A stretch of 64,000 nucleotides of DNA from Micractinium sp. NFX-FRZ. Its lineage: Eukaryota > Chlorophyta > Trebouxiophyceae > Chlorellales > Chlorellaceae. The notes beneath the pieces were generated by a model that saw only the letters and a list, made by a program, of their open reading frames with translations, searched no databases and was not told where the DNA came from. Shown in pieces: positions 17,667 through 64,000 of this stretch. Position 1 is the stretch's first letter; every line of letters begins with the position of its first letter. The position numbers and the translations under genes are program-made. The stretch is from assembly GCA_029339195.1 (NCBI GenBank), contig JAPTJF010000272.1, positions 1-64,000 on the forward strand, in the 5' to 3' direction.

Positions 17667-20600
17667 ATGTTGCTTCCGCGAGGCAGCCACATGGGCATGC
17701 TCATGATGGCCGCAGCAGTGACAGTCCTGCTGATGGCATGCGGCGCACGCAGTCAGAAATCCGCACCCCCACGGCAGTCTACTCGGCCACCACCAGCCCG
17801 AACACCACCTCTCAAGACCTCCAAGCCTCCACCTCCAAAGCCACCACCTCCAAAGCCACCACCNNNNNNNNNNNNNNNNNNNNNNNNNNNNNNNNNNNNN
17901 NNNNNNNNNNNNNNNNNNNNNNNNNNNNNNNNNNNNNNNNNNNNNNNNNNNNNNNNNNNNNNNNNNNNNNNNNNNNNNNNNNNNNNNNNNNNNNNNNNNN
18001 NNNNNNNNNNNNNNNNNNNNNNNNNNNNNNNNNNNNNNNNNNNNNNNNNNNNNNNNNNNNNNNNNNNNNNNNNNNNNNNNNNNNNNNNNNNNNNNNNNNN
18101 NNNNNNNNNNNNNNNNNNNNNNNNNNNNNNNNNNNNNNNNNNNNNNNNNNNNNNNNNNNNNNNNNNNNNNNNNNNNNNNNNNNNNNNNNNNNNNNNNNNN
18201 NNNNNNNNNNNNNNNNNNNNNNNNNNNNNNNNNNNNNNNNNNNNNNNNNNNNNNNNNNNNNNNNNNNNNNNNNNNNNNNNNNNNNNNNNNNNNNNNNNNN
18301 NNNNNNNNNNNNNNNNNNNNNNNNNNNNNNNNNNNNNNNNNNNNNNNNNNNNNNNNNCCTCCCTCCCCCTCTCCCTCACCACCCCCGCGACCACCTCCGC
18401 CCCGCCCCCCAAGCCCATCTCCTCCACCACCGCCACCCAGCCCCTCCTCGCCCCCGCCACTGCCGCCGCCCAGCCCATCCCCTTTGCCCCCGCCAAGCCC
18501 ATCCCCACCTCCGCCCCCGCCTCCCTCCCCCTCTCCCTCACCACCCCCGCGACCACCTCCGCCCCGCCCCCCAAGTCCATCGCCCTCACCACTCCCACCC
18601 AGCCCCTCGCCCCCGCCGTTACCGCCGCCCAGCCCCACCCCGCTTTCACCATCGACACTGCCCTTGGCATCCTTCACAATGCCAAAGTTATCAAATTACA
18701 CTAGTTCCAAAGAGGCATCCCAGGCAGCGGAAGAACTTTCCCAAGCTGTAGGTATCTTTATCAAATGTGTCTTGAGAGAAGGCTCTACACGATTACCCTC
18801 TCCAATGCTTGACACCCTTCTTTTGTTCGCCATGCAGCCCCTGGCGGCCATATATCAGCATATTAATACCTCAAGGGTGCGCCCACATGTAGCAGTCAGC
18901 AATGTTTACGGCTTGCTTTATGAACCAGGCTGATTAGTTTGTGCATGCATTCTTGCAGTCGTTGGGTGCCTGCCTGCTCTTGCTGACTGCTTCCCTGCTC
19001 AAATACACATGCACAGAGAAGATCAAGAGAGGAGCCACTCACATCCCTAGACGAGTTGCTCAAGGACAGGGAGTTCCAGGCCTTAAATGCAAGCCTCCAC
19101 CTGATGATTGAACATGTAACGACCTCATTCTTGCCTTCTTGATAACAGCTGCTGTGTGTGTATCACACCTTGTTTGGCATGCCCCGTGGTTTTCATGCAT
19201 GGCTGCCATGAAATGGCCCTACATCCCCTGCATGCATGCTCCTCACAAGCCGCATGTTTGCCTTCCCACCTGCTGCGTTGTTGATGTACCCGTGTCGTAG
19301 AACCGCAACCCCAACAACACATACTGGCTCACCATGAACGAGTTCAGGTGAGTCGCTGCTTGGTCAAAGGACCAAGCTGGGCTTGCCGGCAGATGTGCAT
19401 GTCTGTGTATTCGGCCCGACACAAACTGGCACGCGGACAACTCTGGAGTGTTGGATTATCATACCCGGCGCACCAAGCACGGTCGAATCCCTGCCTCCAC
19501 CTGTTCTCCCTCCACAGCAACCGCTCATTTGAGGAGCTGGAAGCAACGTATTTGATGCCGACTGTTTATGTTGGCAGCCCACCCCCACCACTCTCGCCAC
19601 CGCCGCCAACACCGCCAGCACCACCTCCGCCACCACACGATCGTGACAGGTTCGACTGGAGGTGGAGGCCTGTAGTTGTAGGTCGGTTTTCTGAGTTCGT
19701 ACTTCCGCCAGTGATTCACCAAGGCCCATGCGGCAGCTGCTGGGCGGTTGCCGCCGTGGCTACCATTGAAAGCAAGGCGGCGATTGATACGACCAGCATT
19801 GGGGTAGGCAGGAGCGTGCAACAACTCTTGGATTGCGTGAGAGGAGATGACTACGACTCAAAGGGCTGTGATGGTGGCCACATAGGTGAGCACGAGGTGG
19901 GATGTTGGCAACATTTCAACCACATCGCTTCATGCTGTCAGCCAAGACACATTGTGCAGGGAGCCAATTATTCAACATCCTGATTGGCACCGATGCACAA
20001 CGCAACTCGTTATGCCTCAATGCCCCCTGCAGAGGAGGCACTTGATTATGTCAGCCGCGTGTTCTCTGCAAAGGAGACATCATATTTCTACACAGCTACT
20101 GACAACGGCACTTGCAAGTCTCCCAGTTCCACTGGTGCTCTGACCCTTGAAGCTCCTGGCTTCAAGCACATTCCTGAAACCACGGAGGCCCTCCTTCATG
20201 CCGTGGATGAGGCTCCTGTGGCCATCTACTTCAATGTAGAGCCCAACTTTTTCCAATACACCTCAGGTAGCAGGAGCGACGCCTGCCCCATGACATGGTA
20301 TACAAGCTGCCTGAATTGCTATGCATGTTGGTCATGCTACAATAATTTGTGTGTGGAACTGCTGCTGTTCTGGTCCCCACACGAGGGTATGGTGCATTTC
20401 AGAGCGTCTGATTGGACCGCGATATGCAGCATCTCCAGTATTATTCAATCCATATATTATTCATACCATGCTCGTTCTGGCATGCAGGCGTCTATCCAGC
20501 CACAGCATGCAGCGACAACACTACTAATCATGCAATGGTGAGGTTGGAGGAACTGGCAGTAGCTTCCTTCACGATGCATACTATAGTAGTGTAGTACTAT

Positions 20601-23600
20601 AGTAGTGTAACTAATAATAATGCCTGTAACATGTGCCATGTGCCTCGCAGGTCGTTGTAGGGTACGACAAAGCGAACAGACCCCCTTTCTGGATCATTCG
20701 AAATTCTTGGTGCGATCATGTTGCGCAATCTCGCTTAGCATTAAACTATTCACTGTGGGTTGCTTTGCCGCACTTTCATCAAGCACTGCACACATTGCAC
20801 TCAAATGCGGCCTCGCACTTTTTTCTGTAGGGGAGACGAGTGGGGAGATAAAGGCTACGCCAAAGTCGAGATGACTGGTGGGAATGGGACATGTGGCATG
20901 CTAAGGTTTCCTGCGGTGGCTCCCTTGACGACCTACACATACCCCCGCCCTAGCCCACCACCGCCTCCACCTCCTTCACCCTCCCCACCCCCACCGCTTC
21001 CCCCTCCTCCGCCGTTCCCACCGTTGCCACCATCGCCGCGCCCATCGCCGCCACCAAGGCCGCCTCCCGTGTCGTTTTCATCTATTCAACCGTCAGCCAA
21101 CAGCCTCCAGCGGCTGGATGACGGCACCTGCTGGGCTTTAATCTGTTCCTACCTGGTAGGATGACGAACCGTGTTTGTCAAAGCATACTTTGCAGGAAGA
21201 GTTCTGGCAACGGTTGCCGCAGAAAGCTTGGGGCTCACCAGCAACCTACAAGCACCGCCTTGGCTGATATTCATTACCTTGTCTGTTTTGCAGCGAGCGG
21301 TTGACACAACGCGTACGCTAGCGCTGCGGGACCAGTACCTCACCATGAGCAGCATGCCCATTGGGACCGACGGATCCCTATCTTCCGCAAGCTGGGGGCA
21401 CGTCCGGCCCAGGGCAAGTGGCCAGCTGCATCAGATGCTGCCTTGATGTCCCTGATGGCCCAGCTACGCAAGTGCGTGTTTGAAGTTTCGTATTGTTGAT
21501 TTGAAGCCTCCCTAAAGTGTGTGCAGGCGCTACGCGAACTAGGCCAGCCACGGGCTCTCAGGTAAGGCTGCTGATGCTTGAAAAGGATCAGAGCGATATA
21601 CACCGTTCAAAATCACACCCCACGGAAAGAACGCTACATGTCTTGTGCTCTCGCAGGTTTTGGTCAAAGTCGAGCTGCCATGGCCGGACAATTCATTTCA
21701 TGTGAGGGGCAGGGTGCTTGTCTGCCTATGCTTATGACGCACGTGCAGCTATGGCAAGCTCAACGAACACCCCGGGACTCAACGTGCACTGCTGCAGGTC
21801 CAACTATACCCAGCTTTGGTACTATGTGACGGGCAGCACCCAGTTTCAAGCACCTGCGGTCTATCCCGCTAATTGGTACACTACATTGGAGAACCACACT
21901 GGTGAGCTGCTCACCAGTCACCAGGAGCAAAGCTCACGCTGCCATCGGTACGGAGGGATTTCTGGGCCTGTGTACAGTCGGATACCATCAGCATGCGAGT
22001 AATGCCGCTGCCCCTGCAGCCGAGAGTATTCCACAACGCGTCACCTCTTTCCCAGACAACTCGGAACGTACTGTGCCTCGAGACAACGCTTTGACGGGCA
22101 CGTTGTTCTCGTGAGCACTCCTTGTGTGCAAGCTGTGTTTGCTCTCTTTGGTGTGTCAGTACTGTGCACTTACATCACATGACTCTAGCCCCCATCTACT
22201 AGTACCCTGCTGACTGCTGATCTGGCTCTACTTAGCGCAGTGCCTACTCCCCTGAATTCGGCTCGGCATACTGGAGTATACCAGAGGACGGAGGCGAACG
22301 CTGGGAAGTGGACGACGACATCAGCCGCCACACTCGGAGCTGCAGGCACGCGCAGGTTGCTGCTGACAGCATTCTTGCTGTCTGTTGTAGGGCGCATGAC
22401 TAAAGCTGGTGTTGGCAAGAGCCGCATAGCGATACATGACCTCAAATGTGAAACCTCTACACTGTGTCATGTGCAGCACTCATCACCGTATATGGATTGG
22501 GTCCGATGCTTGCCCACCAGCGCCACCCCCGCCTAGCCCTTTGCCTCCACCGAGGCCACCACCGCCGAGCCCCCCAAGCCCCTCTCCGCCACCGCCACCC
22601 AGTCCAACCCCGCCGCTGCCTCCAAGCCCGTCCCCAACCCCTCCACCCAAGCCATCCCCGCCACCGCCACCCAGTCCATCCCCGCCGAGCCCACCCTCTC
22701 CTTCCCCTCCCCGCCCCTCGCCACCGCCACCCCCCGGCCCTTCTCCACCACCTCCACCAAGTCCGTCGCCGCTCTATCCCCCTAGCCCACCACCTTCCCC
22801 TCCACCACCCCCACCGCTTCCGTTTATTGAAGTGACAGAGGGGCAGACCGCCACTGCATCTTGTGGTACCTGCAGCCCTGAGTGGCGCTGTGCTGATATG
22901 ATCCCCCGTGATGTTAGTGGAGGGAGTTACTGCGAAGCCAACGGCAACGTATTCACACAAGGCAGCAATGCCAAATACCCCGGCTGCAGCACTTGTTGGT
23001 GCTGCCAGCGCGTCCGCTGCTCGGGCCCAAGTGTCATATCGCGCATCATTGATGCCTACTACGGGGCAGGGAATGCGAGATCCACCATTGCTCACACGTG
23101 CGTGTTAACCGTGTTTGTGTTGCGTTTTGTGTTGCTTGATGCGCTGCACTATGCAACTGTATCAGCAATGGTGCTAACCCACTGTTTCCACTCCCTGCCT
23201 TGTTTTATGTGCAGTGAGGTGTCCTCACGCTGTGTTGGTTTTGCAACCTGCGATGTGCGTGCCACTAATGACGTTTTTGGAGACCCGGCGGTTGGGGCTG
23301 CCAAGCGGCTCAGGTTCTCTTACGCTTGCGGCTCGCCAACTCAGACACCTTTGCCGTGGACGTCCATGGCGTCTGTGGTGCCCTCAAGCGGCAGCCTGGA
23401 ACGTACAGCCGACGGCTCCTGCTGGGCTTTGGCCTTGTCTTACCTCGTGAGTCACCAAATGTCTGCATGTGGGTTGCAATGTACCTTGTAGCGTGCCTTG
23501 TGACACAAGTGGGCTTAGGGGTGCCTGCTTGCGCCTGGATTTGCAGTGAGGCAAGCCCAGCAGCCTGGTTGCAAAACACCTTCCATGACAGTTGACACCA

Positions 23601-26600
23601 CAAGTGCCTTTCCCCTTCCGGCAGCACAAAGCCGGCACTTCCCCTGAGCTCCGGCTGCGGGGCGCAGCTGATGGGTACCCAACAGTTGACATGCGACCGC
23701 TAGGCACTGACGGCAAGCTGAACTCCTCTTCCTGGGGGCACCTGTGGCCGGAAGTAAGTAAAGAAGCGTTCTGTTTGTGATGTGCCTTGTGAGTATAAAG
23801 CAGCTAGCTGCTTGCTGCAACAGCCCTGGCGCCCGGGCTTTGTGAGGGCCCAATTGTTCGGACGGTCACATTCCCTGAGAGCTCGTGCAGTCGCTGCTGT
23901 CCGTGACGCCTTACCTTGAACGTTATGTGCTCCTTGCAGGCGCTCTACGACCTCGGAGGTCCCCGCGCTCTCAGGCAAGGCAGGAGGAAGACGTTGTCCA
24001 TGCTGCACTGCTGGTGCCACAGTTGGATGTCTTTCAACCCAGAAAGTACTGACGCTCCCACCACGTCACTAAGCTTGGCGTTACCTGGCCATGTTTGCAG
24101 GTTCTGGGCTGAGTCTGGGTGCCATAGTCGACGCATCCACTTCACGTGAGTCCAATCTGGCTGCCAATCTTGTTGAATGAGAACCCACCAAAAGTTACCA
24201 CATGCCTGGTTATGTGATATGAATGAGAGCAAGTTGACTGCCAAACTGCCCCACATGGCGATGCGACAGATCTGGAACAGGAAGCGTGCTTTGTTTAACC
24301 ATATGCCTGCAGGACTGGCTATGACGAGCTTTGGTACTACACTTCCGGAGACGCACGCTTCTCCGGCAGCCTCGACTACAACCCTCCGTCCTGGTACTCG
24401 CTCGCCCCAGACCACACGGGTGAGTGCTCCGATGCAAACAGAGTGCACACCGCAGTGCATGCCAGCACTTAGAAGCAGTTCAAAAGGGTGCTCCGAATAG
24501 AGAGGTGCTTGCGCCCCGCACTGCACACCGGCACATGGGATGTGCTTCACTGCACTACTCTGCATGTGTTGGCTTTGCCCTCTCGACACGCATGCCGCCG
24601 TTTTCACCCCCCACAGCTGCAGCCACAATTCCCGTGGCCTCTTATGATTCCCTCATTTGGGCCGACCGGACGACCGCCCTCACCGACCATCCTTTCTAGT
24701 ACGCAACGATGTTGCTTTCGAAATCTGCCATCTGCTAGCATGCCATGATTCGATTGACGGAAGCTGGCCCTGTTAACGTTTCATTCTCTGCGCTGGATGT
24801 ACCGCCTTGCAAATGCCAGTTCTTCACGCCATCTTCAAGGGGCTGTTTGTGCCGAAAATTCCACTGCTTTGATTGCTCTGCCGTGGAAGCTTGCTTTTGC
24901 GAGTGGTTTGACAAGCTGGCCAGGCCTCGCCATGCAGACGCTGACATGGCAATGCTTCTTGTTGCTATGGCAAACAGGGAACTTGCTATGCTTGCCTTGT
25001 CATCGTCACTGCCACCAGACATGGATGCTTCCTCCACCGAAACATTCTTGCAGCAAGGGTGGCACAGCCCACTGGAATATTCGTTTCACAGATCGAGCAA
25101 ACAACCAGCGCTGGGAGGTGGACGACTACCACGCCGCACCCGGCACAGGCTCTACTTGTGACACCCACCACAGGTAGTGCACGTGGGGCAGGCTACCCGC
25201 AGGTGCTGAACACGCCATCATCAGTGATTATGAACTAAGGTTTTTTTAATGCACCCTCACTACCTCCTCCACACAGGGTGTGGATCAGCTCCACCTCCTG
25301 TTCGCCACCCAACTCAGTGGTGAGCCGAATCGGCCCACTGCCAGGATTGCCTGCCCACCTCGCTGCCTGCCCTTGAATAAAATCAAGCCTCGCCGCTCAC
25401 TGCGGTACCTGCTGCAGGTCACCACGGTTGCAGGGGGCGGCACCGGCGGTGATGGCTCCGCTGTTCTGTCTGCAGAGCTACAACCTCCCAGCGGCCTGGC
25501 ATACGACCAATCAGGAAACCTGCTCATTGCCACGCCCGAGTCGAACAGCATTCGCCTCCTAGAGGCTGTCAGCGGACTCCTCTTCACCCTGTCTGTGGGC
25601 GACTTCAAGCTCAACTACCCACTGAACGTGGTGGTCAATTATAACAATGACGTCTTCATAATGGATACCAACAACCACCGTATCCTCCGAAGGACCTCGT
25701 TTGGCAGTGTGTCCGTTGTAGCCGGCGCTGCACCAGGGTTTGCCGACGGGTTGGGCACTGATGCCAGGCTGCGCTACCCCGGCGACGCGGTGGCAGTGGG
25801 CGATGGCCTGTTGGTGGCAGATATTGTAAACCACGCGATTCGCAGGCTGGACTTTGTTTCTCCCTGGGATGATGCCACGGTGAGTCGAGTCTGGGCACCT
25901 GGTGTGCTTGGCTAACAGCTACGATGTTGGGAAATTCCTTTGCGAAGGGGGCGAGCAGCACAGGGTCAGCCTGCCAGCCTGTCAGCCGGCTGGTGGCACT
26001 TCACAACAATGGATGACAGCTTGCATGATTTGATTGGGCTATACGTTCTGGCCTCCCTCCGTCTCAACTGCGCAGGTGACCACCTTGGCCGGGAATGGAG
26101 TGTTGGGCTTTGCTGATGGTGCCTTCAATGTCGCACGCTTCAATGCACCTCGTGGCATTGCAAGGGACCCTGTCACCGGCGCTGTGTATGTGGCAGGTGA
26201 GGGTGAAGCCCAATCCCACACAGCCATCATGTGAAGGGAGGGGCAACTGCCCAATGATGGACACTGTTTGCCTCCCTGGACCCCCAGTGGCTTGCACCGT
26301 AACTGCATTTCAATTGCTATCGTGCTCCCACAGACTGCAATAACCACCGCATCCGCCGACTGGACCTAACCAATCAGGTGGTCACCACAGTGGCAGGCAC
26401 CGGCACTGAAGGCTACAGCGGTGACGGCGGACTTGCACGTTACGCAACCCTGCGCTTCCCCAACCGCGTGGCGGTGGACTGCCTAGGCAACCTGTGGATT
26501 TCTGATGCCAAGTAAGGACGGGGCCTGTTGTTTGCAGTCGTGCTCGGGCTTGAGTTGCAGCCTGGCATCATTATTATGCACACTTGAGGCAAAGCTTCTG

Positions 26601-29600
26601 ACTCGAAGTAGGGCGCTGTGTTTGTGCGGAGGGTGCGGCAACTCGGGCCAGGCGTCATGAGAGTTGGCTGGCACGTTGTCACACGTCCCGAACCGTGCCC
26701 GCCGTGTGATGCAGCAACCACGCCATCAGGAGGGTGGACTATAGGACACAAGTCATCACCACCTACGTTGGCACTGGCACTGCTGGCAACGCCAGCGACG
26801 GTGGTTTGGCAGCGAGTACAACTGTCAACTTTGTTGCGTTTGAGACCGGGTTACTTCTCCGTGGGAGCAGCCTTCTATTTTCTGACAGCTCCAGTGGGCG
26901 GGTTCGAACGGTCACAAATGCAGTCCCAACCGCATGCCCAGCTGCTTGCTCCAGTAGGACAGAATACGATGTTGATATTGTATTCGGAGACCTGCCAGGG
27001 CAGCCCATCATGGCATTCAGCGCTGGTGAATGCTGCGCCCTTTGCACCGCCAATACAGACTGCAAAGCCTGGTGAGGACCACTGTGGGTGGGCTTAGTTT
27101 GGTCGGATCCACAATGCCAGGCTTTTGCCGAGTGCCCTCGATGTTGCACCACGCATGCACGCCGCAACTGAAACCCAAGCCCTGCACGTGTCGTGGGCTG
27201 GTTCTTATGCATTGTGCTTATGATTGACCTGTCGCTGCGTGACAGGATACAGTGTGTTCTTGCTGGTACATCCATGAGGTGCCCACATACCCAATTGCAC
27301 AGTGGTGGCCAGGCCTCTAAATGACGCTCCCTGGTAGCTAATTGTAGCTGACTAATACCGTTTGCTCGATTTCCGGTTGGCTTCCTCAACCCACGCCCTC
27401 AGGCTGCGCCCATCTTCTTCTTCAGCTCTCCACTTACCTGTTCCACAAGACGCCCCGCACATTTTCGTGCCCCACACGCTCTTGTTCCTTAGCCTGCATC
27501 CTGATGTTTGCTTGAATTGTGCTTGTTGCTTGCAGGGTGCACAAGCCTAGCAACTTGTGCTTCCTCAAGAAAGGTAATGGTTGGATCAGGACAGTCGTGC
27601 TCGGCCACGGCACAGTATCGGGGTACATGAACCCCTGCCCGTACTCAGACGGAAGCGTCATCAGGTGCTCCAACAGCGGCACCATCTGGAAAATTGAGGG
27701 CGGGCGCAAGCGATGGTACGGTGGGCAAGCATACGCGTCATCTGGCCGGCCATCACCAGACGACGATTCGGTTGAGGTGTGCACCAAAGCAGAGTTGTGC
27801 CCCTCGGGGGCCCATATGCCCGCTCAATGGTGAGTGCAGGGACAACGGGCTTGGGAGGCCAAGGCAAATTGATCGACTTGCGAAATTATTTCGCCCCGCG
27901 ACGTCTGGCCTGTGCTTACAGGCTGCATGCCACCCCACAGGCACCTGGCTCACGCAACCCAACATAACTATTGGCCGCTGCAGGGTGTCGCAGCAGTTCA
28001 TCCGGACAGCCACCACTGGCACCATTTCTTGCTCAGATGGAGGAACCATCGTTGGTTTTGGCGACATAAGTGAGGCTGGCCATGACCTGGCTTTGACGTG
28101 CTTGGGTTGTAGATGCGTGCAGCCACTAGCAGGGACGCGAGGCGCACAACTTTTACAGTATCCACCAGTGCATGATCCGGTCAGCTCCCTCCTCTCAACT
28201 CCACCCGCATCTCTGTGCAGATTTGGACCAGCTGGGCTGGGGCTGGTTACCAGAAGGTGGTGGTTTTTGGCCCTTCCAGCACTGCATCGGCAAGCGGTCA
28301 TGCCAGGTGTACGTGAACCCCGATTGGTGGTGGTCCGACAGCTACTGCAGGTCCTGCACAGCCTCAAACTGCTGGGATGAATGCAGGGTCGCCTCCGCCG
28401 TCAGGTGACGTTTGCATGGGTGCCGGTGCGCTTGGTTGCAGCAGCCTTGGTGGAACTGATGGTCCATGGGGTCATTTGCTCCGTCAGCAGTCACTAGCTG
28501 TGACTGTTACTCAGCTGCTGCTTCAAGGTGTTGGAGTTCATTTAATGCCGCAACTCCGGTAGATGCATTCTGGTGCAACCGCTTGAGATGCAAGCACCCC
28601 ATGCACGCCATATTCTCTGCAGATGTGAGTGGCGCGTGCCTGTGCCCGCGGTGGTGCACACCCCGCCTTCTTGCACCACCGCCTCCATCTACTTTGGGAT
28701 AGATTTTGCGGGCGGGGACATTATTGCTGTCAGCTCAGCAAACTATAATGACTGCTGTGCGCGCTGCGCTGAGCACCCAGAGTGTGCCCGCTGGTGAGTG
28801 TGGGTTGTGAACAAATCTGCTAGTAGGTACGGCCCTGCAGGTTGATGCTTTCTCCTTTTGGCATCACTCCCCGAGGGGCCATGCACGCATTATTTGTGAC
28901 TTGTGTTACGAACAGTGTATGCTGACCCTAATGTTGCTGTCGTCCACACCACGTCGCAGGACTTTTGGCCTCTTCAACAATTGCAACTTGAAACGTGCCA
29001 CTGGGTGGACAGAGACGGTGGTCTATGGTGCTGTGTCTGGCCACTATGGCTCAGCCCCCTCAGTCGTGGCAGCGGAGGGTTCAACGGCAGTTGCAGCCTG
29101 TTCAAGTGGCCAGGTCATCACATCTATATCTGCTAGTGTCAGCGCCAACAGGTGCGCACGTTGTTGCATGTGTGCTACCCGTCGCATGGTAGCATAGCTG
29201 CTCTGCCACTGTGGTGAAAGTGTTCTTTGCATGGCATACTTGCTGGTGGTTGCATCTGCCGTGGCTGCGCGGACACTAGAAAATACCATCTAGCTGTTGC
29301 GGCTACAGCCGCATCAATCAAGTCTGACTGCCCCCATAACATGTGGCAAGTTTGCACACCCTCCAAGCATGTCTCTTAATCACTCGAGCTATCCATCAAA
29401 TGTGCACCCTCCCCCCGCCCTCCCTTGACAGTATTGTCACCAACGCCTGCCTCAGCAAGCCCAATTGCTCAGTGGTGGCTGTCAACACCGTGTTTGGAGA
29501 CCCAGATCTGGGAGCAGCAAAGCGGCTGATGTTCAGCTACACGTGCACCCCCCTTTGCGGCGGTCAGGCGTGTACCGAGCTGGCCTATGTAAGCATGCAT

Positions 29601-51870: not shown

Positions 51871-54800
51871 TTACCATGAAGGCATGTATCCAAAGGGATC
51901 ATATGGCGCTGGAGGCGGCCCAACAACGATGGGCATATCAGGCCCTGGACGGCACAGGTCCTTTTGGGTGCACACGTCTTCTGAAGCTTCATCAACGGTT
52001 GGATAACCAACAGATGCATATGCCTCCCATGTGAACATCCGCCGGCTGCCCCCTTCGATGCTCCAGATGCCACCAGCGCTCGGATCTAAGCTTGAACTGG
52101 AGCATTGGATAATTTGGCCGTCGTAGTAAGGGCATGTCCGCTTTACACCCGAAACCGTGCCGGTGCCAATCCTGACCATCCTGCTCCACACGTTTTCCAT
52201 TAGCCAACAGAGCGAGCCGGAGTTGTAGGTCCTGCAAGACTTGGAAAGCATATAGCGACGTGTCACAAGATATCGTGGTGCGGCAAAATGTGGGGGAGAT
52301 GAAGAGGAAAGACACGCGGGGAAATCGTCGGGATTCAACTTCACTGCCGTCTCACCAGGCGTTGCACGAGTCGAAGCCAGAGCAGAGCGAACAACACTCG
52401 GCGGCGCTGGAAACCTTGGCAGGCATAGTCGGTTCTCCCTCGAACTGAACATCATACTCTAAGGCGGACGTGCATGTGGGTGGGCAAGTGCCCGCTACGA
52501 CGTTGCTGGTATGTAGCACGCGCCCGTTACCACTGTCAGAAAACAGTAAGTTGCTATCATTGGCAAGCACGCCAGTCTCAAAATCAAAGTTCAGAGCAGT
52601 GTTTGCTGCCCATCCGCCGTCACTGCTTTTACCAGCAGCACCGCTGCCTGCCCACGTGGTGATGACTTGTGTCCTAATGTCAAGCTTTCTGATGGCGTGG
52701 TTACTGCACGGGGCAAAGGGCATGCAAGGGGTCGAATTCACGGCCATCGCCAGGAGCTGCACGGGTGCTCACAAAACAAATCAATGCATGACTCGCAACA
52801 ACGTCGCCAGTCGAGATGTGGGTGAATCTGCCATTTTGGTGCCAAAGCTGGCAGTGTGGCATTGGCCAAGGTGGCCGACATGACTTGCTGCCCCTCAACC
52901 TTGGGTCGCCTGTGAACCGGTCCGACATGCTCTTACCCAGTGTCCGCAATCCACAAGTTGCCAAGGCAGTCTACCGCCACTCGGTTGGGGGAGCGTAACG
53001 TGGCAAACTGGGCAAGCCCACCGTCGCCGCTGTAGCCCACAGTGCCAGTGCCTGCCACAGTAGTGACCACCTGATTGGTCAGATCCAACCGGCGGATGCG
53101 GTGGTTGTTGGTGTCTGCATGGCAGTTGGGCAGAGGCGGTGTTTCGCAGTGTTCTTGCATGGAAGAAGTCTTTTCATTTTGCTTTTGCGCTATTGTTGGT
53201 GGTTTAAAGAGCAGCTTGTTTGGGGCCGCATGCATGTCGGTGCCTGCCAGTTGTCGTATGCGCCCGATGCCTCGCCGGCTATTGCCGGCGTGCGGTGCCA
53301 GCCTCGCCGTATGTCTCGTCTCTAACAAGAGTGCCCTGCTCTGCCCGTTGCTATCCAAGTTTCGGGGTTTTGGAAATATTGCGAGCAAGCAAAACACTGC
53401 TGGCCGCTAAATGCAGACTCTTTATGCATATGCATGTTGTGTAGCACCTTGCTCCATATTCAATCCCACACACCTGCAACATATACAGCTCCGCTGGAAG
53501 CGTCCCTGGCAATGCCTCGTGGGGCATTAAAACGCACTGCACTAAACGCGCCGTCAACAAACCCAGCATCGCCGTTGCCAACCAAGGTCGTCACCTGTGG
53601 GCGCAGGAACATGTCAACAAGAGGAAGAATACTGTACGAGGGTGCCGGGCTGAGGAAGTCAACGAGTAGTTAGTTCAAGGCGCCAGTCAGCTGCCACGTG
53701 CAAAAGAACAACCTTTGCGTCATTGTGACCTCCCAATCTGTTGCACATCTCTAACATGCCTCGATTTTTCGAGAATGCATCAGGACGCGGCATGCAAGCC
53801 TGTTGCAGGGACGCCTGCAAGCTCCCCTCACCTCGGGGGCAGTCCAAGGTGAGGTCTTGAAGGCCAAGTGCCTGATCGCATGATTTTCTATATCAACGAC
53901 CAAAAGGCCACCCATTGCATCTGCCACCAGGTCGCCAGGGTAGCGCAGCCTGGCATCAGTGCCAATGCCATCGGCAAAGCCGGCCTCCTGCGAGGCTGCC
54001 CCTGCGACCACCTCGACGTTACCCTGCGTGGTCCTGCGCAGCACGCGGTGGTTGTTGGTGTCCACAATGAACACTTCGTTGTTGAAGTTCACCACCAGGT
54101 TGAGTGGATAATTCAGTGTCTGCCCGCCCATGTCGAGCGTGAAAAGGTTGCCACTGGCAGTGTCCAGATAACGGATGCTGTTGGTCAGGGGTGAGGCAAT
54201 GAGCAGCCCGCCAAACTGGTCGAACGCCAGACCACTTGGCCGGCTGAGCTCCGCAGACAGTGCACTAGCGCCATCCCCTTCTGTGCCGCCGCCCGCAACA
54301 GTGGTCACCTGCAGCAACAGTTTCGGCATCAAGTCTATAAGGATTTGGCCTGAGCGGGCAGCGCCGGGCAAGCTGGTTTACTCGGCTAGAACACGATGGG
54401 CACGCGCGGGATTGGCAATGCAGGCAAAATACAGAGGCCGCAGCAGAGATACTGAGCCAATCCAGTGTGACATGAGCACCCACCAAGGAATCTACGGGGG
54501 CGCATGCCTTGGAACTGATCCACACCCTGTGTACATGAAGTGGGGGAGAGACTATGCAGGTCGCACCAAGTTATAAATCGAGGGACCAACTATGTCTGTT
54601 GGGCTGCTAGTAGCTGGAGCATGTCACCTGTGGTGTGTGTCACACATGTGCCCAGTCCCGGGTCCATAGAGTACATCATCCACTTCCCAACGCTGGTCTC
54701 CGGCATCATCCGGAAAACGCACGTTCCAGTAAGCCTCGCCATCCTTGCTGCAATGCACAAGATTCGGCGTAGTCAATGAAACATACGCTGGCTGAAGAAG

Positions 54801-57800
54801 GGGGTTGTGACAGGGAGGATGCGCAAGACAAAACAAATGTGTTTCGGTATAGTCACGTGCCCAACATCAATGATTGTCACAAACATACAAGGCAAGCTTG
54901 GTGGGTCGACCAGGGTCAAATTGAAGCTGAAGGCATGTCAGTCCGCAATGGAGCGGGCAACAGGTTTGCTGCCAAGCACAATGCAAACTAGATCAACAGA
55001 GGCCACTTGCAAGCAAGTACGTAAGTGAAATGGGGCAACGCATGTGGGTGCATAGCAGCATGCAGGCTTGGCGGCAGCTTCGTCAACAAGCAAGCACCAT
55101 AGGTACATACTAGAAGGGGTGGCTGGTAAGCGCGATTGTCCGGTCCTCCCAAACTATGGAATCCGGGGAGCTCTGCGGGACGTGGGTGGCTGCAGGCACA
55201 ACAGCAGGGTTGGGGGATGCAAACTGCGGGCTGCTAGACCGTGCACTGCATGAAAGTGGTGATCCCCACGTGGGCAGTGGACACCCGAGGAGCAAAACGC
55301 AAATATTGGATCACGTTAGCGTTGTTAGGTGTTGCAGCAAGCGTTGGCACACCCACCAGTGTGACCTGGCTGAAGCGAGTACCAGGTGGTCGAATTGTAG
55401 TTCAACCCAGTGAAGCGTGCGTCCGCTGCTGCATAGAACCACAGCTGGTCGTATGCAGTCCTGCAGAGGTGTCGGCAATCTCAGTCAGAACGCAGCTTGT
55501 GTGGCTGGCCACCACCGTCGTCACCCAGAAGTAGCCATCGAGACATTTGAATGGAAGGGTATGAAGCCGTGCAGAGCTTCTGGGGGCATCCCAGTCGACC
55601 TGGTGCTTTTCTAGCGCCCGCACTATGCATCATCTTGGTGGTTATCAGCCGTCACACTCACGTGAAATCAATGCGACTAGCAGTACAGCTGGACTCAGCC
55701 CAAAACCTGCATACGTGGCACAGTCGTGGTAAAGAACAGCATGGCAGCGTGGCCTGTGAGTGGTCCATCATAATCAGGCTAAGATGTTTCGATTTAGCCC
55801 CAGGTGTGGTATAGCAGCAGTGCGACGTGCATGGCCTCCTGTCTTGCCTTAGTGCGCGAGGGCCGAGCTCTCGGAGTGCCTGCAGCAAGGAGGGTAGCCT
55901 TAAATGAACTTGCAGGGCTCCCCAATCACAAGAGGATATCCAAAACACGCAGGGGCTCCCGTATCACAAGCGGATATCCAAAACACGCATTCATGGAAGC
56001 TTGTGTTTACCTCAGGCCACAAGTGCCCCCACCCCCGGCTGTTGAGCTTGCCATCCGTGCCCAGGGGGCTTTCGTCCGCAACTGGGTAGCCTTCAGCCGC
56101 GCTGCGCAGCCGCAATTCAGGGCTCGTGCCGCCTTTGTGCTGCATGGAGGGGCGGTTGCACATGGTAAGGGCAGCCTTAAGGTGCCTGCAGACCTGCATT
56201 AACCTGCCATTCGCAGTGTCGCTCCCAGCAAAGGGAGGAGCAAGCATGTTTCGCTGGCTCCCAGGCTCAGCTCACAAGGTATGACAGGGCAAGTGCCCAG
56301 CACGAGCCGTCAGGACTGCGTTGAAGGCTGCCTGTTGAGGGCACCACAGAGGACATGCCAGTCCAAGGGAGCGGAGCCTCTGTAGGAGGGCCGCACTCGT
56401 AGGAGAACCTCAACCTCTTGCTGGTTTCAATCTCCGGGTCACCAAACACGTCATTGGTGGCAGGCACGTCGCAGGTCACAAACCCTATACAGCGTGCCGA
56501 CACCTCTCTGCATGTGGTAGGTGGTGGCAGGGGTTGAGCAGACAACAAAGCGCATTGCATTGCAGAACTGCGCATTGGCACAATGGCAGCGTTCGTACTC
56601 CAGCACTTCTGGCTCGCACAAATGCCCTTGCATGCTTTCGCAACCGAGGGTGCAGGCGGTGCAGAGGCCAGCTGGCAGCGGCGGCTAAGCCAGCCCATTG
56701 GTGCGCACATGTAAGAAATTGTGGAATTGCTGGTGTCAGTCCCGTAGAACGGATCGAAAATCCGGGTGATGACACTAGGGCCTGAGCATCGCACGCGATG
56801 GCAGCACCAGCAGGTGCCGCATCCAGGGTAGTTCTCATTGATGCCGTCGGTGTAAACGTTGCCGTTCGCCTCGCAGTGGGCCCGTCCAAGCACGCTGACT
56901 ACGCCATCGGCACACTGCCATTCGGGGCTGCAGGTTCCACACGATGCCGTTGCTTTGCCTCCCTCCGCAACGTCCACAGAAGGCAGTGGAGGTGGAGGCG
57001 GCGGTGAGGGCGGTGGTGGAGAGGGAGGTGGCGGGCTGGGTGGGGGCGGGGAGGGCGGTGGCGGAGAGGGAGGTGGCAGGCTGGGTGGGGGCGGGGAGGG
57101 CGGTGGTGGAGAGGGAAGTGGCGGGCTGGGTGGGGGCGGGGAGGGAGGTGGCGGGGAGGGCGGTGGTGGAGAGGGAAGTGGCAGAAAGGGAGGTGGCGGG
57201 GAGGGAGGTGGCGGAGAGGGCGGTGGCGGAGAGGGAGGTGGCGGGCTGGGTGGGGGCGGGGAAGGAGGTGGCGGAGAGGGAGGTGGCGGGCTGGGTGGGG
57301 GCGGGGAGGGCGGTGGTGGAGAGGGAAGTTGCGGGCTGGGTGGGGGCGGGGAGGGAGGTGGCGGGGAGGGCGGTGGTGGAGAGGGAAGTGGCGGGCTGGG
57401 TGGGGGCGGAGAGGGCGGTGGTGGAGAGGGAAGTGGCGGGCTGGGTGGTGGCGGGGAGGGAGGTGGCGGAGAGGGAGGTGGCAGAAAGGGAGGTGGCGGG
57501 GAGGGAGGTGGCGGAGAGGGAGGTGGCGGAGAGGGAGGTGGCGGAGAGGGAGGTGGCGGGCTGGGTGGGGGCGGGGAGGGCGGTGGTGGAGAGGGAAGTG
57601 GCGGGCTGGGTGGTGGCGGGGAGGGAGGTGGCGGAGAGGGAGGTGGCGGGCTGGGTGGGGGCGGAGAGGGCGGTGGTGGAGAGGGAAGTGGCGGGCTGGG
57701 TGGGGGCGGGGAGGGTTCGTTGGGAGATGAAGGGGAGGGAGGTGGCGGAGGACGTGAGGGGCTGGGGGGAGGTGGAGGAGGCGAGGGGTTCGGAGGTGGT

Positions 57801-60800
57801 TGAGGTGAAGGTGAGGGGGGAGGTGGAGGTGGCGAGGGGTTCGGAGGTGGCTGAGGTGAAGGGGAGGGGGGTGGCAGAGGTGGCATGGGGCTGGGAGGCG
57901 GAAGTGGCGAGGGGCTAGGGGGTGGCAGCGGTGAAGGTGAAGGGGGAGGTGGAGGTGGCATGGGGCTGGGAGGTCGAGGTGGCGAGGGGCTGGGTGGTGG
58001 AGGTGGCGAGGGGCTGGGAGGAGGTGGAGGTGGCGAAGGTCTGGGTGGTGGCGGAGGAGATGGCGAGGGGGGAGGTGGAGGTGGCGAGGGGCTGGGAGGA
58101 GGAGGGGGTGAGGGCTTGGGTGGTGGTGGTGGCGGGGCTGGGGGGCATGCCGATGTGTCATACTCAATCCACATGCGGTGATGCGTGCTGCACATGGCGC
58201 ATGTGAAGATTATAGTGAATTCGTCATTCTGCAAACGGCATACAACGTGGCATTGCGCTCTTTCTCCCACGCACCTGCACGCTGAGTCCTCCAGTAAGTA
58301 GTCAGAAACAGAGTCGTCCACCTCCCAGCGATGCTTGTCCTCAGTATACCCAGCACGAATGCTCCAGTACGCCACGCCCGGCTTGCTGCAAAAGAGGCAG
58401 GCTTGCTGTGGCTGTTAGGATATGGACGAAAACAACGATCGGTGACACACATATATATTGGGCAACACGTGCAATTTCAGACTTGACAGACAGCCGGCAT
58501 GAATAAAACACAGTTCAGGCGTCATAATGACAAACACCTGCACGTCCCATTGCCATGCACACATGCTAGGAACGAGCAAGTCCTCACAAGAAAGGGTTGT
58601 CTAGCACGACGTTGTCCTGCTGAATGCCAGGCAACCCTGCTGAAGTCGCGTTGACCTCCTGTGGGATGTGCACAGCTGCATGGCAGGCACCGGCAAAAGT
58701 ACAGAGCATGTCGCCTTGATGCAGCCCGGCTCAGGTGAGATTGCGTGATGGAACAGCTGCATGAGAGTTCTGGCATGGCGGGGCAGCTGAGTGGGGCACT
58801 TACCTGTGTGGTCCGGCATGAGCGTGTACCATGCAGTGGAGAAATTCAGCGAGCCCTGGAAAGAGGGGCTGCCAGACACATAGTGCCACAGCTGGTCATA
58901 TCTGGACCTGCACACACTTGGCAGAAGCAGAGTGAGATTCTACTCAACGCCACTGCCAGCAGCAGCAGCGGCAGCAGCAATGATGACAGTGGCATCGGTG
59001 GTGGCGGCAACACTAGCTGCTGCCGTCATGGGCATCAACAGCAGGCCAGTGGGGCCTGCTGTGACTCACGTGAAGTGGACCCTCCTGCTATGGCAGCTGC
59101 TCTCCGCCCAGAACCTGCACATACGGGCACACCGTGATGCTTCCTGTTGGCTTCCCTAACTCCACGCCCTCAGGCTGTAATCTTCTTCTCACACCATGAT
59201 GAGCGTAGGGCGTGGTCCACGACATGGCGGTGCCTCCTGCATGCCCACCCTAAGCTCAAAGACTGGCCCAAAAGCAACCATCACCTGAGAGCAAGTGTCC
59301 CATTCAACTCGCGCAATGCCTGCAGGCACCAAGGGAAGGCTGTTGAGGCAACAAAGCACAGACTATTGCATTCCTGCCTGCGCGGGCTGCGCAAGTTGTG
59401 CAGGCTGTGGTGAGCAATGGGGGGTCTGATGGCGGATGGCAAGGGTGCTGCCAGCAGGCAAGCTCTCGCGCATTGCGTTGTGTTGCAGCAGCGGATCACT
59501 GTCCAGGGATGTGGGGTGCAGACAGCCGAACTGAACTAAGTCCAAGGCAACACCAGTTCTCTCGTAAACACAGATGCATGTCACAAACACCCACCCTGGG
59601 TCTGACATGTCCCCAGCTGCCAGGTGTGAGTGAGCCGTCTGTGCCCAGCGGGCGGTTGCTCTTGATTGGGTAGCCCTGGGCAATATCTCGCAGCCTCAGC
59701 TCGGGGTTGGTGTCCCTCTTGCGCTGCAGCAGAAACCATGTTACAGTGTCAAGGATTTGCTGTTGTCCCCCCATCTTTGCATTGCGGCATACAGTGAGAC
59801 GCCGCACTGCATGTGTTGAGGCCACCACACTGCCGCACCTGATATGACAATACCAGTGCCCAGCACGTGCCATCAGGCAGCCTCTCCAGGCTGTTCACAG
59901 AAGGCACCACCCACGCAAATGTGGCTTTGGGCGGGGACGGAGGGGGTAGGGGTGGCGAGGGAGACGGAGGGGATGGAGGTGGTGGAGGCAATGGGGGTGA
60001 GGGGCTTGGCGGTGGTGGGGATGGGCTGGGGGGCGGCAGGGGGGAAGGGCTGGGGGGCGGTGGAGGAGAGGGCCGAGGTGGGGGCGGTGGCGGGGCTGGG
60101 GGGCATGCCGATGTGTCATACTCCATCCACACGCGATGGTGCGTGCTGCACAGGTGCAATGCACGAGTGCTTTCAAATGTTGCCTTGCGTTAAACTTGTT
60201 GTTTTGCAAACAACATGCAGCGGGGAAACGAGCTCCAGTTCAACGCACCTGCAAGCTGTGTCCTCCAAGAAGTAGTCGGAAACAGAGTCGTCCACCTCCC
60301 AGCAATACCTGTCCTCACTGTACTCAGCACGAATGCTCCAGTACGCCACACCGGGCTTGCTGCAAAACACAAGCATGCTTCCTGTGTGTGTCAGTGATGG
60401 AAAACTAGACGCAGCGGGATCTCAACACCCACATCACGGTTGCACTAAGTGCACATCCAGATTGCACATCCAGACAGTCATGGCCCTCTGCCTGTGCCCC
60501 CTGTGCCTCACAAGAATGGTTTGTCTAACATGACGTTGTCCTGCTGAATGCCGGGTAACCCTGCCAAAGTCGCGTTGACATCCCGTGGGATGTGCACAGC
60601 TGCATTGCGGGCAAGGCACGGTCATCTTGGAGTAGATCGGCGTATGTGGCAGGTCTGCGTGGAACAGCTGCTTGAGAGTTCCAGCGTGGCGGGGCAGCTG
60701 AGTGGGGCACTCACCTGTATGGTCTGCCATGAGCGTGTACCATGATGTGGAGAAATTTAGCGAACCCTGGAAAGAGGGGCTGCCAGACACAAAGTGCCAG

Positions 60801-63800
60801 AGCTGGTCATAGTTGGACCTGCAGGATGTTTGTAGAAGCAGGGTGTCAGACTCATCACTAGCACCGGCGGCTGCAAGGCAGAGGCACTGGCAATACCAGG
60901 ACCAGCTGCAGCAGAAGCATGGCATGCAGCAATGTGTGCACCAAAAACAGCGGCAAGGCAACCGCAGCAGTGGGGCATGTCCGGCAGAGGCAGCAGCCAA
61001 TCAGCCCTTGACAGATTTCCCAGCAGAGCATTCGTGGCTTGGGGGCTGTGACGTACGTGAAGTGAACTCTTCGGTTATGGCAGCTGCTCTCCGCCCAGAA
61101 CCTGCAGATGTGGGCTTGGTGATTGGTCAAGGATCGGACACCATAAACCGCATGCACACCTAGACCAGGGCTCAATACAGCTGTCCAAACTCGAAACAGG
61201 TCACCTGAGTGCACGTGTCCCATTCAGGGTGCGCAATGCCTGCAGTAACAATGGAGGCATTAAGAGCTGAGTTAAGTCCCGAAGGCAGTCGCAAGCTGCT
61301 TGTGAGCATGGCGTGGGTGGGTGGGTGGGCGGTGGTGTGTGTCAGGGGGATGTCGAGGCTGCCACTAATTGGTATGCTCTGGTGCGGCATGCTGAAGCCA
61401 CTCACCCGGGGGCGCACATGGCCCCAACTGCCAGGTGTGAGCGAGCCGTCTGTGCCAAGCGGGCGGGTGCTCTTGACTGGGTAGCCCTGAGCGGTGTCTC
61501 GCAGCCTCAGCTGGGGGTTTGTGTCCCTCTTGCGCTGCAGCGCAATTCATGACAAGCTTGATTGAATTCTGCAATTCACCCGTTAGAAATCTGTATGCAT
61601 GTGCTAAGACTTCACACATTCGCACCTGATAAGACAAGACCAATGCCCAGCACGTGCCATCAGGCAGCCTCTCCAGGCTGTTCACAGAGGGCACCACCCA
61701 CGCAAAGTTGGCTTGAGGAGGCATTGGAGGAGGGAGGGACGGCGAGGGGGATGGGGGGGAGGGTGGTGGGGGCGGAAGTGGGGGAGAGGGGCTTGGTGGA
61801 GGCGGAGGTGGCGCTGAGGGGCATGCCCCTGTGTCGTACTCAATCCAAACTCGGTGGTGAGTACTGCATGTGGTTAGCGGGTTAGTGGTTAGCGGTATAC
61901 TGGGTTAAGAGCACGGCAACACGTCGTCTGTGCACACGCACCTGCAAGCCTTGTCCTCCAGTGGATACCCAAATGCATAATCGTCCACCTCCCAGCGATG
62001 CCTTGCTTCACTCTGGTTTACACGGATGGACCAGTGTGCCGTGCCGAGGTTACTGCAGCGGTAACCGGGAGTTTAAGGTTTTTAGCAAGGGAGCTCCTGG
62101 GAAAAGAGGCTGTTGCGGTGAGAGTCAAAGCACATGATTGCCACGTACGTGCATCAACAATGCACATGATTACACATGTCATCTCACATGAACGGCATAT
62201 TTGTCAAGAAGCTGTCTTGCTGGGTGGTGTTGGGCAGGTTAGCGGAAATACCAGTGCCTTGCTGCGGTACGTAGATGGCTGCAGGATGCAATTGAAGTTG
62301 GTGCATGCGAAGGTCAGAGGGCAGCAGAAGTGATAGCACTAGGCAGCCTTCTGCTATTCCGGTGTTTTGAGATGCTCACCAGTGTGGTCTGGCAATAGTG
62401 TGTACCATGGTTTCGAGTAGTCTATTGGCCCCTCAAACGCAGGGCTCTCAGACACATAGTACCACAACTGGTCGTAGCTGGATCTACAGTGACATACAAC
62501 GACAGTTGACTAAGGTTAAAAGGGAGTCACGATTTAGGTTGGGGTGTTTGATGCAACACGGACACCGAGTACGTCAGATTTGCACCCAGTTGTTCCACAG
62601 TGTGAAAACGTGGCGAATGTGCATTGCATACCTAAAGTGAATTCTGCGGCTGTGGCAGCTGCTCTCAGCCCAGAACCTGCATAGGTGGGTTGAATGAAAA
62701 CGCGTGCTGTGTGCCCCAGATGGACAAGGTGATCATTGCGCCGCTGAAGTCAAAAGCGCGCAACCTTACCGGAGTGCGCGTGGCCCGCTCAGCTCGGCCA
62801 ATGCCTGCAGAATCCAACAGAGGCACAGTCGTTACAATATCAGCCACAACAGCACATCAACTGAAACACATAAACCTTTTTGGGAGTGGGTAGGTAACTG
62901 TCGCAGTAGTGGCAAAACCTGCCTTACACACTGCTTGGCAGAACCGTCTGTCATTTTGCATTTATACGACCAATGCTTACCCGGGGGCGCACGTGCCCCC
63001 AGCTCCCAGGCGTGAGCGAGCCGTCTGTGCCAAGGGGGAGGGTGCTCTTGACTGGGTAGCCCTGGGCGATGTCTCGCAGCCTCAAGTCCGGGCTAATGTC
63101 CCTCTTACGCTGTAGTGCATGTAGCGTGGCAGTGCACGTGGCAACACCACGTATTTGGAAGGGCTGGACTTTCCCGGTCGATGCTAACTTTAGAGGCGAC
63201 TACACGCTCTCTCTGCCAAAGACAAGGGCCCCTACATGGAGAATACACAAAGCTCACCTGGTACGACAATACCAGTGCCCAACAGGTGCCATCGGGCATC
63301 CGCTCAAGGCTGTCGACAGAGGGCATGACATCCGAAAATTTGGTTCGAGGTGGTAGTGGCGGGCGGGGAGGAGGTGCGGGAGAGGGTGGAGTTGGGCTTG
63401 GCGGAGGGCGCGGAGATGGGCTGGGGGGCGGTGGTGGGAAAGGGCGCGGTGGAGGCGATGGCGGTGCTGGGGGGCAACCCGAATTGTCAAATTCCATCCA
63501 AACTCGATGATGCGTGCTGCACGAGATGTTGGGGTCACACACGGGAATTTCAGTGGCCTCGCATCTGAGGTATGTGTGGGCCCAGCATGAGCATCAAAGC
63601 AAGTTACTAGGCAGTCAAGTCATGTACCTGCAAGCCTTGTCCTGGGAAGCGTAGGCGTAGATGGTGTCGTCCACTTCCCAACGATAAATCCCTTCGCTTT
63701 GTTTTACGCGAATAGACCAGTGGCCAAGACCACGCTTGCTGCGGAAATGTCAACGAGGTGGGATACATGAGTCAGAAGGATATGCTCTAACAAAATATAA

Positions 63801-64000
63801 GCGAATACCACTCAAACATGCACAGTGCCTCCCATGCATGTAAGCAACCTGCGTGGTCAATGCAAATGCAGCGACTTAGGCGCGCTCACAAGAAGGGCAT
63901 GTCCGTCAGGAAGTTGTCTGGTTCGACCTTGTAGGAGAGATCATACGCGCTTGCATTGGCTTGTTGCGGAACGAAGACAGCTGCATAGGGCACCGGGTGA
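51871..64000 (-). CDS. Inverted paralogue of the mosaic protein (5' end outside window): Trp/Cys modules, PPSP linkers, SUEL, NHL, PAN
   Basis: Partial: the gene continues beyond base 64000. In coding order it has the end of one Trp/Cys-rich module (VFVPQQ at 63950, HWSIRV...YRWEVDD at 63690, STHHRVW at 63510) and three further complete modules with short PPSP linkers at 63480-63360, 61830-61720 and 60110-59940. A very long PPSP linker (58145-56985), a SUEL lectin (56985-56390), a final module (56390-54630), NHL repeats (54312-52600), a PAN domain (52480-52200) and the IW-IEGG domain (52180-51890) follow. It stops with TAA at 51871 after PPPAPYDPFGYMPSW. Domain order from the SUEL lectin onward matches the plus-strand gene, but it has extra modules upstream and lacks the later SUEL, F-type and beta-trefoil domains. 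Whether it starts with a protease cannot be seen. It is presumably extracellular by analogy. Confidence 0.82.
51890..52480 (-). other. PAN/Apple plus IW-IEGG domain of the minus-strand paralogue
   Basis: KVSSAAECCSLCSGFDSCNAW then, after an intron, TYNSGSLCWLMENVW make a PAN-like domain. RIGTGTVSGVKRTCPYYDGQ, GGIWSIEGGSRRMF, EAYASVGYP and CTQKDLCRPGPDMP repeat the unrecognised domain of the plus-strand gene. Confidence 0.65.
52590..54312 (-). other. NHL-repeat region of the minus-strand paralogue
   Basis: Exons at about 53840-54311, 53470-53595, 52937-53117 and 52352-52704 read VTTVAGGGTEGDG...RPSGLAFDQFGGLLIA, DTNNHRVLRR, FNAPRGIARDASSGAVYVA, NNHRIRRLDLTNQVVTTVAG, SPNRVAVDCLGNLWIADTG and NHAIRKLDIRTQVITTWAG, with exon boundaries equivalent to those in the plus-strand gene. 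Confidence 0.9.
54630..56390 (-). other. Trp/Cys-rich module next to the NHL region (minus gene)
   Basis: In coding order: SLQRSPDGSCWALALSYLV (about 56330-56270), SPLGTDGKLNSRGWGHLWPEV (56020-56085), ALRELGPRALR (55835-55880), FWAESSCTASRIDF (55670-55710), YDQLWFY (about 55450), SSPDSIVWEDRTIALTSHPF (55110-55180), AYWNVRFPDDAGDQRWEVDD and CDTHHR (54628-54750). It corresponds to copy 2 of the plus-strand gene. Confidence 0.78.
56390..56990 (-). other. SUEL-type lectin domain of the minus-strand paralogue
   Basis: VAEGGKATASCGTCSPEWQC, GCGTCWCCHRVRCSGPSVIT and FDPFYG come first; RCIGFVTCDVPATNDVFGDP and KRLRFSYEC follow after an intron (about 56514-56707). It keeps the same Cys-rich insert and FGDP signature as the plus-strand copy. 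Confidence 0.75.
56985..58150 (-). repeat. Expanded PPSPPPP-coding linker, about 390 codons
   Basis: On the coding strand this is an uninterrupted run of PPPPSP units (18-bp and 30-bp near-repeats). The equivalent linker in the plus-strand gene is about 100 codons, and the other linkers in this gene are 35-60 codons. Such Ser/Hyp repeats form rod-like glycosylated spacers in algal wall proteins. The extreme G/C strand skew makes it prone to slippage. Confidence 0.9.
58150..60110 (-). other. Trp/Cys-rich module with its PPSP linker (minus gene, third complete copy)
   Basis: SLERLPDGTCWALVLSYQV (about 59850-59900), NPELRLRDIAQGYPIKSNRP and LGTDGSLTPGSW (59610-59720), ALRELNGTLALR (59287-59320), FWAESSCHSRRVHFT-like (59075-59115), YDQLWHYVSGSPSFQGSLNF (58840-58910), QQDNVVLDNPF (58590-58630), AYWSIRAGYTEDKHRWEVDD (58290-58375), STHHRMW (about 58180). 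The element at 59148-59198 lies in one of its introns. Confidence 0.78.
59148..59198 (-). repeat. Dispersed short element, copy in the minus-strand paralogue
   Basis: On the minus strand it reads GAGAAGAAGATTACAGCCTG, then AGGGCGTGGAGTTAGGGAAG, then CCAACAGGAAGC, matching 27376-27425. Confidence 0.6.
60130..61830 (-). other. Trp/Cys-rich module with its PPSP linker (minus gene, second complete copy)
   Basis: SLERLPDGTCWALVLSYQV (about 61640), NPQLRLRDTAQGYPVKSTRP and LGTDGSLTPGSWGHVRPR (61405-61530), ALRTLNGTRALR (61205-61240), FWAESSCHNRRVHFT (61060-61105), YDQLWHFVSGSPSFQGSLNF (60760-60815), QQDNVMLDKPFL (60508-60550), AYWSIRAEYSEDRYCWEVDD (60290-60350), STHHRVWMEYD (about 60130). Confidence 0.8.
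61830..63512 (-). other. Trp/Cys-rich module with its PPSP linker (minus gene, first complete copy)
   Basis: SLERMPDGTCWALVLSYQV (63260-63320), SPDLRLRDIAQGYPVKSTLP and LGTDGSLTPGSWGHVRPR (62985-63110), ALAELSGPRALR-like (62770-62805), FWAESSCHSRRIHF (62640-62680), YDQLWYYVSESPAFEGPIDY (62410-62485), QQDSFLTNMPF (62190-62225), AHWSIRVNQSEARHRWEVDD (61985-62050), STHHRVWIEYD (about 61850). Confidence 0.78.

Follow-up and report, generated by a model that had tools for sequence, protein, structure and literature searches.

What is the module that two genes on one contig of the green alga Micractinium sp. NFX-FRZ (JAPTJF010000272.1, here C272) carry again and again, and what might it do there? 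The window analysed is the first 64,000 nt of this contig, in which a first-pass annotation had noticed a Trp/Cys-rich module repeated at least six times across two genes and matching no family it could name. We find that the copies are real coding exons under purifying selection and that nearly full-length relatives of the module occur in viral proteins. We read the module as a divergent fibrinogen-related or intelectin-like recognition domain, that is, one resembling the fibrinogen-related domain (FReD) or the X-type lectins, of a family shared with viruses, and we put the probability of this reading at roughly 60%.

Splicing of the genomic sequence yielded seven copies, five (c1–c5) in a minus-strand gene at 54–66 kb and two (p1 and p2) in a plus-strand gene at 20–26 kb (Table 1), which bears out both the repetition over two genes and the pair of copies previously placed near 21080–25173. 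Each copy encodes 210–219 amino acids, and the other copies are 51–88% identical to c4. Where seven short exons were first described, every copy consists of eight exon pieces separated by seven introns. The intron phases (0,0,2,2,1,2,2) are the same in every copy, and the 49 introns all end in an AG acceptor, with a GT donor in 44 and a GC donor in 5. dN/dS is 0.12–0.30 in the 18 of 21 copy pairs for which dS could be estimated, the other three being saturated. These ratios, together with the consistent splicing, show that the spliced frames are real coding exons under purifying selection. The range originally assigned to the c gene copies, 54630–64000 with four complete copies and one partial, was correct in part: c2–c4 are whole within it, c5 lacks its 34-nt eighth exon and 2 nt of the seventh, and only the end of c1 falls inside, this copy spanning 65574–63465 with its first five exons beyond the window (C272 65574–64519).

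A spliced-profile script applied to the 66-Mb genome recovered seven more copies outside C272, on contigs C71 (one), C151 (three), C799 (two) and C800 (one), giving a genome total of at least 14, as the counts of each search are lower bounds. The first four intron phases are as in the C272 copies in all seven, and the fifth likewise in the six that reach that intron. Only the first part of the C71 copy was recovered, near a contig end; C799a is cut short in the script output, its last exons being visible in the DNA; the predicted 3′ end of the C800 copy differs, and the 3′ end of C151b is uncertain.

The module is indeed rich in Trp (nine in c4, counted by hand) but not in Cys (four in 218 amino acids). 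Its anchors, taken at first to be fixed, are present but variable: p1 has YTQLW and FWSKSSCHGRTIHF, p2 has YDELW and c5 has FWAESSCTASRIDF. The Pro-Ser (PPSP) linker reported after most copies corresponds to a Pro-rich linker of CP(P/S)AP type after c1–c4 and p1, and there is none after c5 or p2. Cys22, in the DGxCW motif, is invariant in all 14 algal copies. Cys92 is lost in C151b and C151c, the latter of which also has no cysteine near THHR, a joint loss that would fit a Cys92–Cys200 disulfide. C800 and C151c deviate from the other algal copies in the RWEVDD stretch.

Catalogued families did not account for the module, and its description as a distinct conserved unit without a family stands. 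None of the seven C272 copies matches Pfam, and among all 14 copies there is a single chance-level match each in Pfam (E = 0.046) and NCBIfam (E = 0.044). Searches of the PDB with algal profiles gave no match in the first case and four rows in the second; the best row, a pterin carbinolamine dehydratase, has a motif-level likeness (E = 0.078) and was disregarded. Scans of viral and genome contigs with the algal alignment found nothing, the peptide patterns being specific to the alga, so that absence from bacteria is not shown by them. tblastn against the phages of INPHARED and the plasmids of PLSDB, queried with a single algal copy, viral copies or the typed GGGW pattern described below, gave no match better than E = 3. 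Among the publications listed in literature searches, none was recognizable from its title or the start of its abstract as dealing with this module.

Relatives came to light in IMG/VR. The query was a typed, generic pattern of fibrinogen-like GGGW domains, representing no specific protein, and found four viral contigs; two more scans with alignments extended these to ten contigs with eight distinct domain sequences as aligned, the last scan adding none (examples are IMGVR_UViG_3300044216_000019, 3300021376_000092 and 3300007631_000005). Three algal–viral pairs were compared by BLASTP, with E = 8e-15, 2e-10 and 2e-12. In hhalign, the 14 algal rows matched four viral rows at 99.5% (E = 1.9e-22) and eight viral rows at 99.88% (E = 3.5e-32) over 189 columns, which is nearly the full length; with shuffled viral columns the score reached at most 20.2 (99 scored), against the real 205.6. 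At the level of sequence, this direct comparison of alga and virus is independent of that query and decisive for homology, and the initial expectation of a domain restricted to green algae has to be abandoned.

The likeness extends over nearly the whole domain. In eight chosen rows (four viral, four algal), 26 columns are invariant, including WGH, SxHxR, RWExDD and TxHR. RWEVDD and TxHR are found in all eight aligned viral rows, and WGH and SxHxR in most, WGH being missing from contigs L070 and L071. Unlike the algal copies, the viral domains are intronless and have neither Cys22 nor Cys92, and an N-terminal SG(V/P)Y(W/F) strand region on eight of the ten viral contigs is absent from the algal copies. 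A small, unrooted tree places all algal rows and all viral rows on opposite sides (100/100). The module is probably a recognition domain and not an invention of the alga alone; its family is missing from Pfam and NCBIfam, and most members are marked by DG or GGGW, GTNPxL, WGH, SxHxRxIHF, HxA, RWEVDD and TxHR. The most divergent viral relatives are L070 (IMGVR_UViG_3300019926_000277) and L071 (IMGVR_UViG_3300007631_000005), whose proteins look acidic and halovirus-like by eye.

On nine of the ten viral contigs the domain forms the C terminus of its protein; in L070 it lies mid-protein, followed by about 415 residues. PHROGs tail-fibre families match neighbouring genes on L061 and L064, the latter also carrying a terminase gene. 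In the protein of L073, a part other than the module is matched by a ‘tail fiber assembly’ family. No PHROGs family matches L070, and those that match L071 are all of unknown function. A tail-fibre label is therefore supported for some of these contigs, not for all. The viral module itself has no PHROGs match in L061 or L064. The L069 protein matches families of unknown function whose alignments reach the first half of the domain, among them phrog_1325 over residues 26–205 (E = 5.8e-26); PHROGs of this type were matched by neither L061 nor L064, and the one algal copy tried has no PHROGs match at all.

Kinship with the fibrinogen-related/intelectin superfamily is indicated by some of the viral relatives. 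Fibrinogen_C (PF00147) matches three of nine scanned viral proteins at up to 17.6 bits, under the curated cut-off of 22, and none of the 14 algal copies; a Fibrinogen_C scan of the alga’s own genome found none, and the controls of that scan were silent too. The GGGW signature of the N-terminal strand is present in L069, L072 and L073; the algal copies keep DG(T/S/A)CW, and the L061 group lacks both GGG and W. In a structure search with a modelled viral member, the 50 VIA rows listed, each of FReD or intelectin kind, cover nearly all of the model, the best structural neighbours being FReDs (fibrinogen chains, ficolins, angiopoietins and FGL1). The best predicted-structure match is the LamG-like protein A0A7M3UP39 of Pyramimonas orientalis virus (two BFVD rows, E = 7e-7 and 3.2e-5, 24–26% identity), as given by the structure-search rows; we take this virus to be one that infects a green alga. 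Judged from the modelled viral member, the module is likely to have a FReD-like fold. By sequence, other viral relatives give no such indication of kinship with fibrinogen or intelectins. A PDB search with L061 returned six antibody chains only, and one with the eight-row viral profile a single unrelated chain. The C-terminal half of the module (RWEVDD...TxHR) differs from that of FReDs, and the intelectins and X-type lectins (4wmq, 6usc, XEEL and lamprey serum lectin), of about 270–280 amino acids, match over about 40 residues, their C-terminal halves not aligning by sequence.

The two genes of the window share one domain order in the DNA: papain-type protease, module or modules, SUEL-like lectin, module and NHL propeller. 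In the c gene the protease (E = 3.8e-27 in one frame) is followed by c1–c4 on Pro-Ser linkers, the SUEL-like domain, c5 and NHL; in the p gene the single p1 precedes the SUEL-like domain, with p2 and NHL after it. Parts downstream of the first NHL stretch also match between the genes. Both proteins are large and probably secreted. c5 groups with p2 in the tree (100/99), and c1–c4 fall together (99/97); the module before the SUEL-like domain has therefore undergone tandem amplification in one gene. The company of lectin, NHL or protease domains, said to be constant, is kept in the window but not everywhere else: one copy comes after a PA14 domain (E = 5.9e-10), and the C799 tandem pair after a region that is propeller-like by eye and has no Pfam match. 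The C71 copy comes after SUEL-like stretches.

Table 1 Module copies and accompanying domains in the window
Feature	Positions	Strand	Details
Module copy c1, last three exons in window	63465..63980	-	exons 63980-63890, 63738-63628, 63516-63465
Module copy c2	61812..63344	-	exons 63344-63258, 63109-62981, 62804-62770, 62676-62632, 62483-62380, 62278-62188, 62052-61942, 61863-61812
Module copy c3	60094..61715	-	exons 61715-61626, 61534-61406, 61239-61205, 61101-61057, 60818-60715, 60599-60512, 60359-60249, 60145-60094
Module copy c4	58136..59928	-	exons 59928-59839, 59723-59595, 59319-59285, 59114-59070, 58907-58804, 58675-58588, 58385-58275, 58187-58136
Module copy c5, adjoins SUEL-like domain on its downstream side	54493..56365	-	exons 56365-56276, 56139-56011, 55879-55848, 55706-55662, 55460-55357, 55189-55111, 54747-54628, 54526-54493
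Module copy p1, paralogous gene	21072..22522	+	exons 21072-21155, 21294-21413, 21527-21561, 21657-21701, 21798-21901, 22020-22110, 22241-22345, 22477-22522
Module copy p2, adjoins SUEL-like domain on its downstream side	23357..25310	+	exons 23357-23446, 23625-23753, 23940-23974, 24101-24145, 24313-24419, 24623-24698, 25054-25173, 25277-25310
PPSP linker c1/c2	63345..63464	-	read from sequence
PPSP linker c2/c3	61716..61811	-	read from sequence
PPSP linker c3/c4	59929..60093	-	read from sequence
Long PPSP linker, c4 to SUEL-like domain	56987..58135	-	open frame 58414-56267
SUEL-like lectin domain, c gene	56384..56986	-	PF02140 E 5e-4, 20.8 bits; under curated cut-off 31.4
SUEL-like domain, p gene	22826..23338	+	47% identical to c-gene SUEL-like domain
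First NHL stretch, c gene	53844..54323	-	PF01436 E 1.4e-11
First NHL stretch, p gene	25403..25867	+	69% identical to c-gene stretch
Papain-family (Peptidase_C1) domain, p gene, upstream of p1	19729..20942	+	

Other domains accompany these. A second papain-like domain lies outside the window, upstream of the active-looking one (L009 ~6367–5082, minus strand; C272 ~69.9–68.6 kb), with CASSW in place of the active CGSCW, so that the catalytic Cys is apparently replaced by Ser, as in a pseudo-peptidase. Downstream of the p-gene NHL region is an extra SUEL-like stretch (29409–29552, plus strand; 48% identity over 48 amino acids). After the NHL repeats, both paralogues have a Cys-rich ECCxLC stretch (26710–27072, plus strand; 52708–52355, minus strand), which is presumably PAN/apple-like.

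If the module is a recognition domain of the FReD or X-type-lectin kind, each copy would bind something displayed on a surface, with glycans of walls, matrix or microbes the likeliest ligands. Strung in tandem, four of them on Pro-rich linkers, the modules could bind with higher avidity and so keep the papain-type protease on its target. The best-surviving alternative, clearly the less likely of the two, keeps the FReD-like fold and assigns it to protein–protein contact or to a structural bead, as in fibrinogen knobs and angiopoietin FReDs, instead of sugar binding. Many of the listed structural neighbours (fibrinogen, angiopoietins and ANGPTLs) bind proteins, and the tandem arrangement on Pro-rich linkers would suit such a role; phage tail-fibre tips, however, usually bind surface glycans or receptors, and the SUEL and PA14 domains observed nearby are of kinds that often bind sugars. 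We consider it unlikely that the virus-shared family, though real, has a fold of its own and resembles FReDs through a convergent GGGW strand only, given that every VIA row listed is of FReD or intelectin kind and covers almost the whole model. Speculative to a similar degree is a single mobile family exchanged between viruses and hosts, serving as a recognition domain of phage fibre proteins and of a giant virus of a green alga, and as algal surface modules; the alga would have multiplied it on secreted proteins linked to a protease, having captured an adhesin from a virus or using the module as a decoy or recognition system against viruses or microbes with the same ligand.

It is very improbable that the module is an OTU-like cysteine peptidase or pseudopeptidase domain with Cys22, in DGxCW, as its catalytic-site cysteine. 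DG(T/S/A)C, WGH and AL..LRFW do stand in the order of the OTU motifs, and Cys22 is invariant in the alga, but it is absent from the viral rows. Comparison with OTU peptidase (PF02338) profiles of six and nine rows is insignificant (hhalign 0.67–0.9%, E = 0.06–0.09), 17 of 300 shuffles scoring as high; the catalytic His (HYD/HYN-like) is not kept, the residue before the aromatic of YDQLW never being His in the 14 copies, none of which has a Pfam OTU match. An OTU domain does occur at L012 (contig C241 88574–91657), inside a long open frame of 826 amino acids that runs off the contig end and that looks like a non-LTR retroelement. That the motifs recur by chance or that exons were joined wrongly, a concern raised by splice models read from DNA alone, is in essence refuted by the consistent phases and GT/GC–AG ends of 49 of 49 introns, the dN/dS of 0.12–0.30 and an alignment to intronless viral genes that covers nearly the full length of the module.

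On the preferred reading of a fibrinogen-related or intelectin-like domain, an anonymous repeat becomes a testable recognition domain, one that is common to an alga and viruses and that Pfam and NCBIfam miss. Once the family is catalogued, annotators could spot the module elsewhere, and phage workers would gain a candidate receptor-binding tip. The structural match to a protein of what is presumably a green-alga virus makes the link between host and virus directly checkable, and it becomes possible to ask by what means green algae detect or retain targets on cell surfaces.
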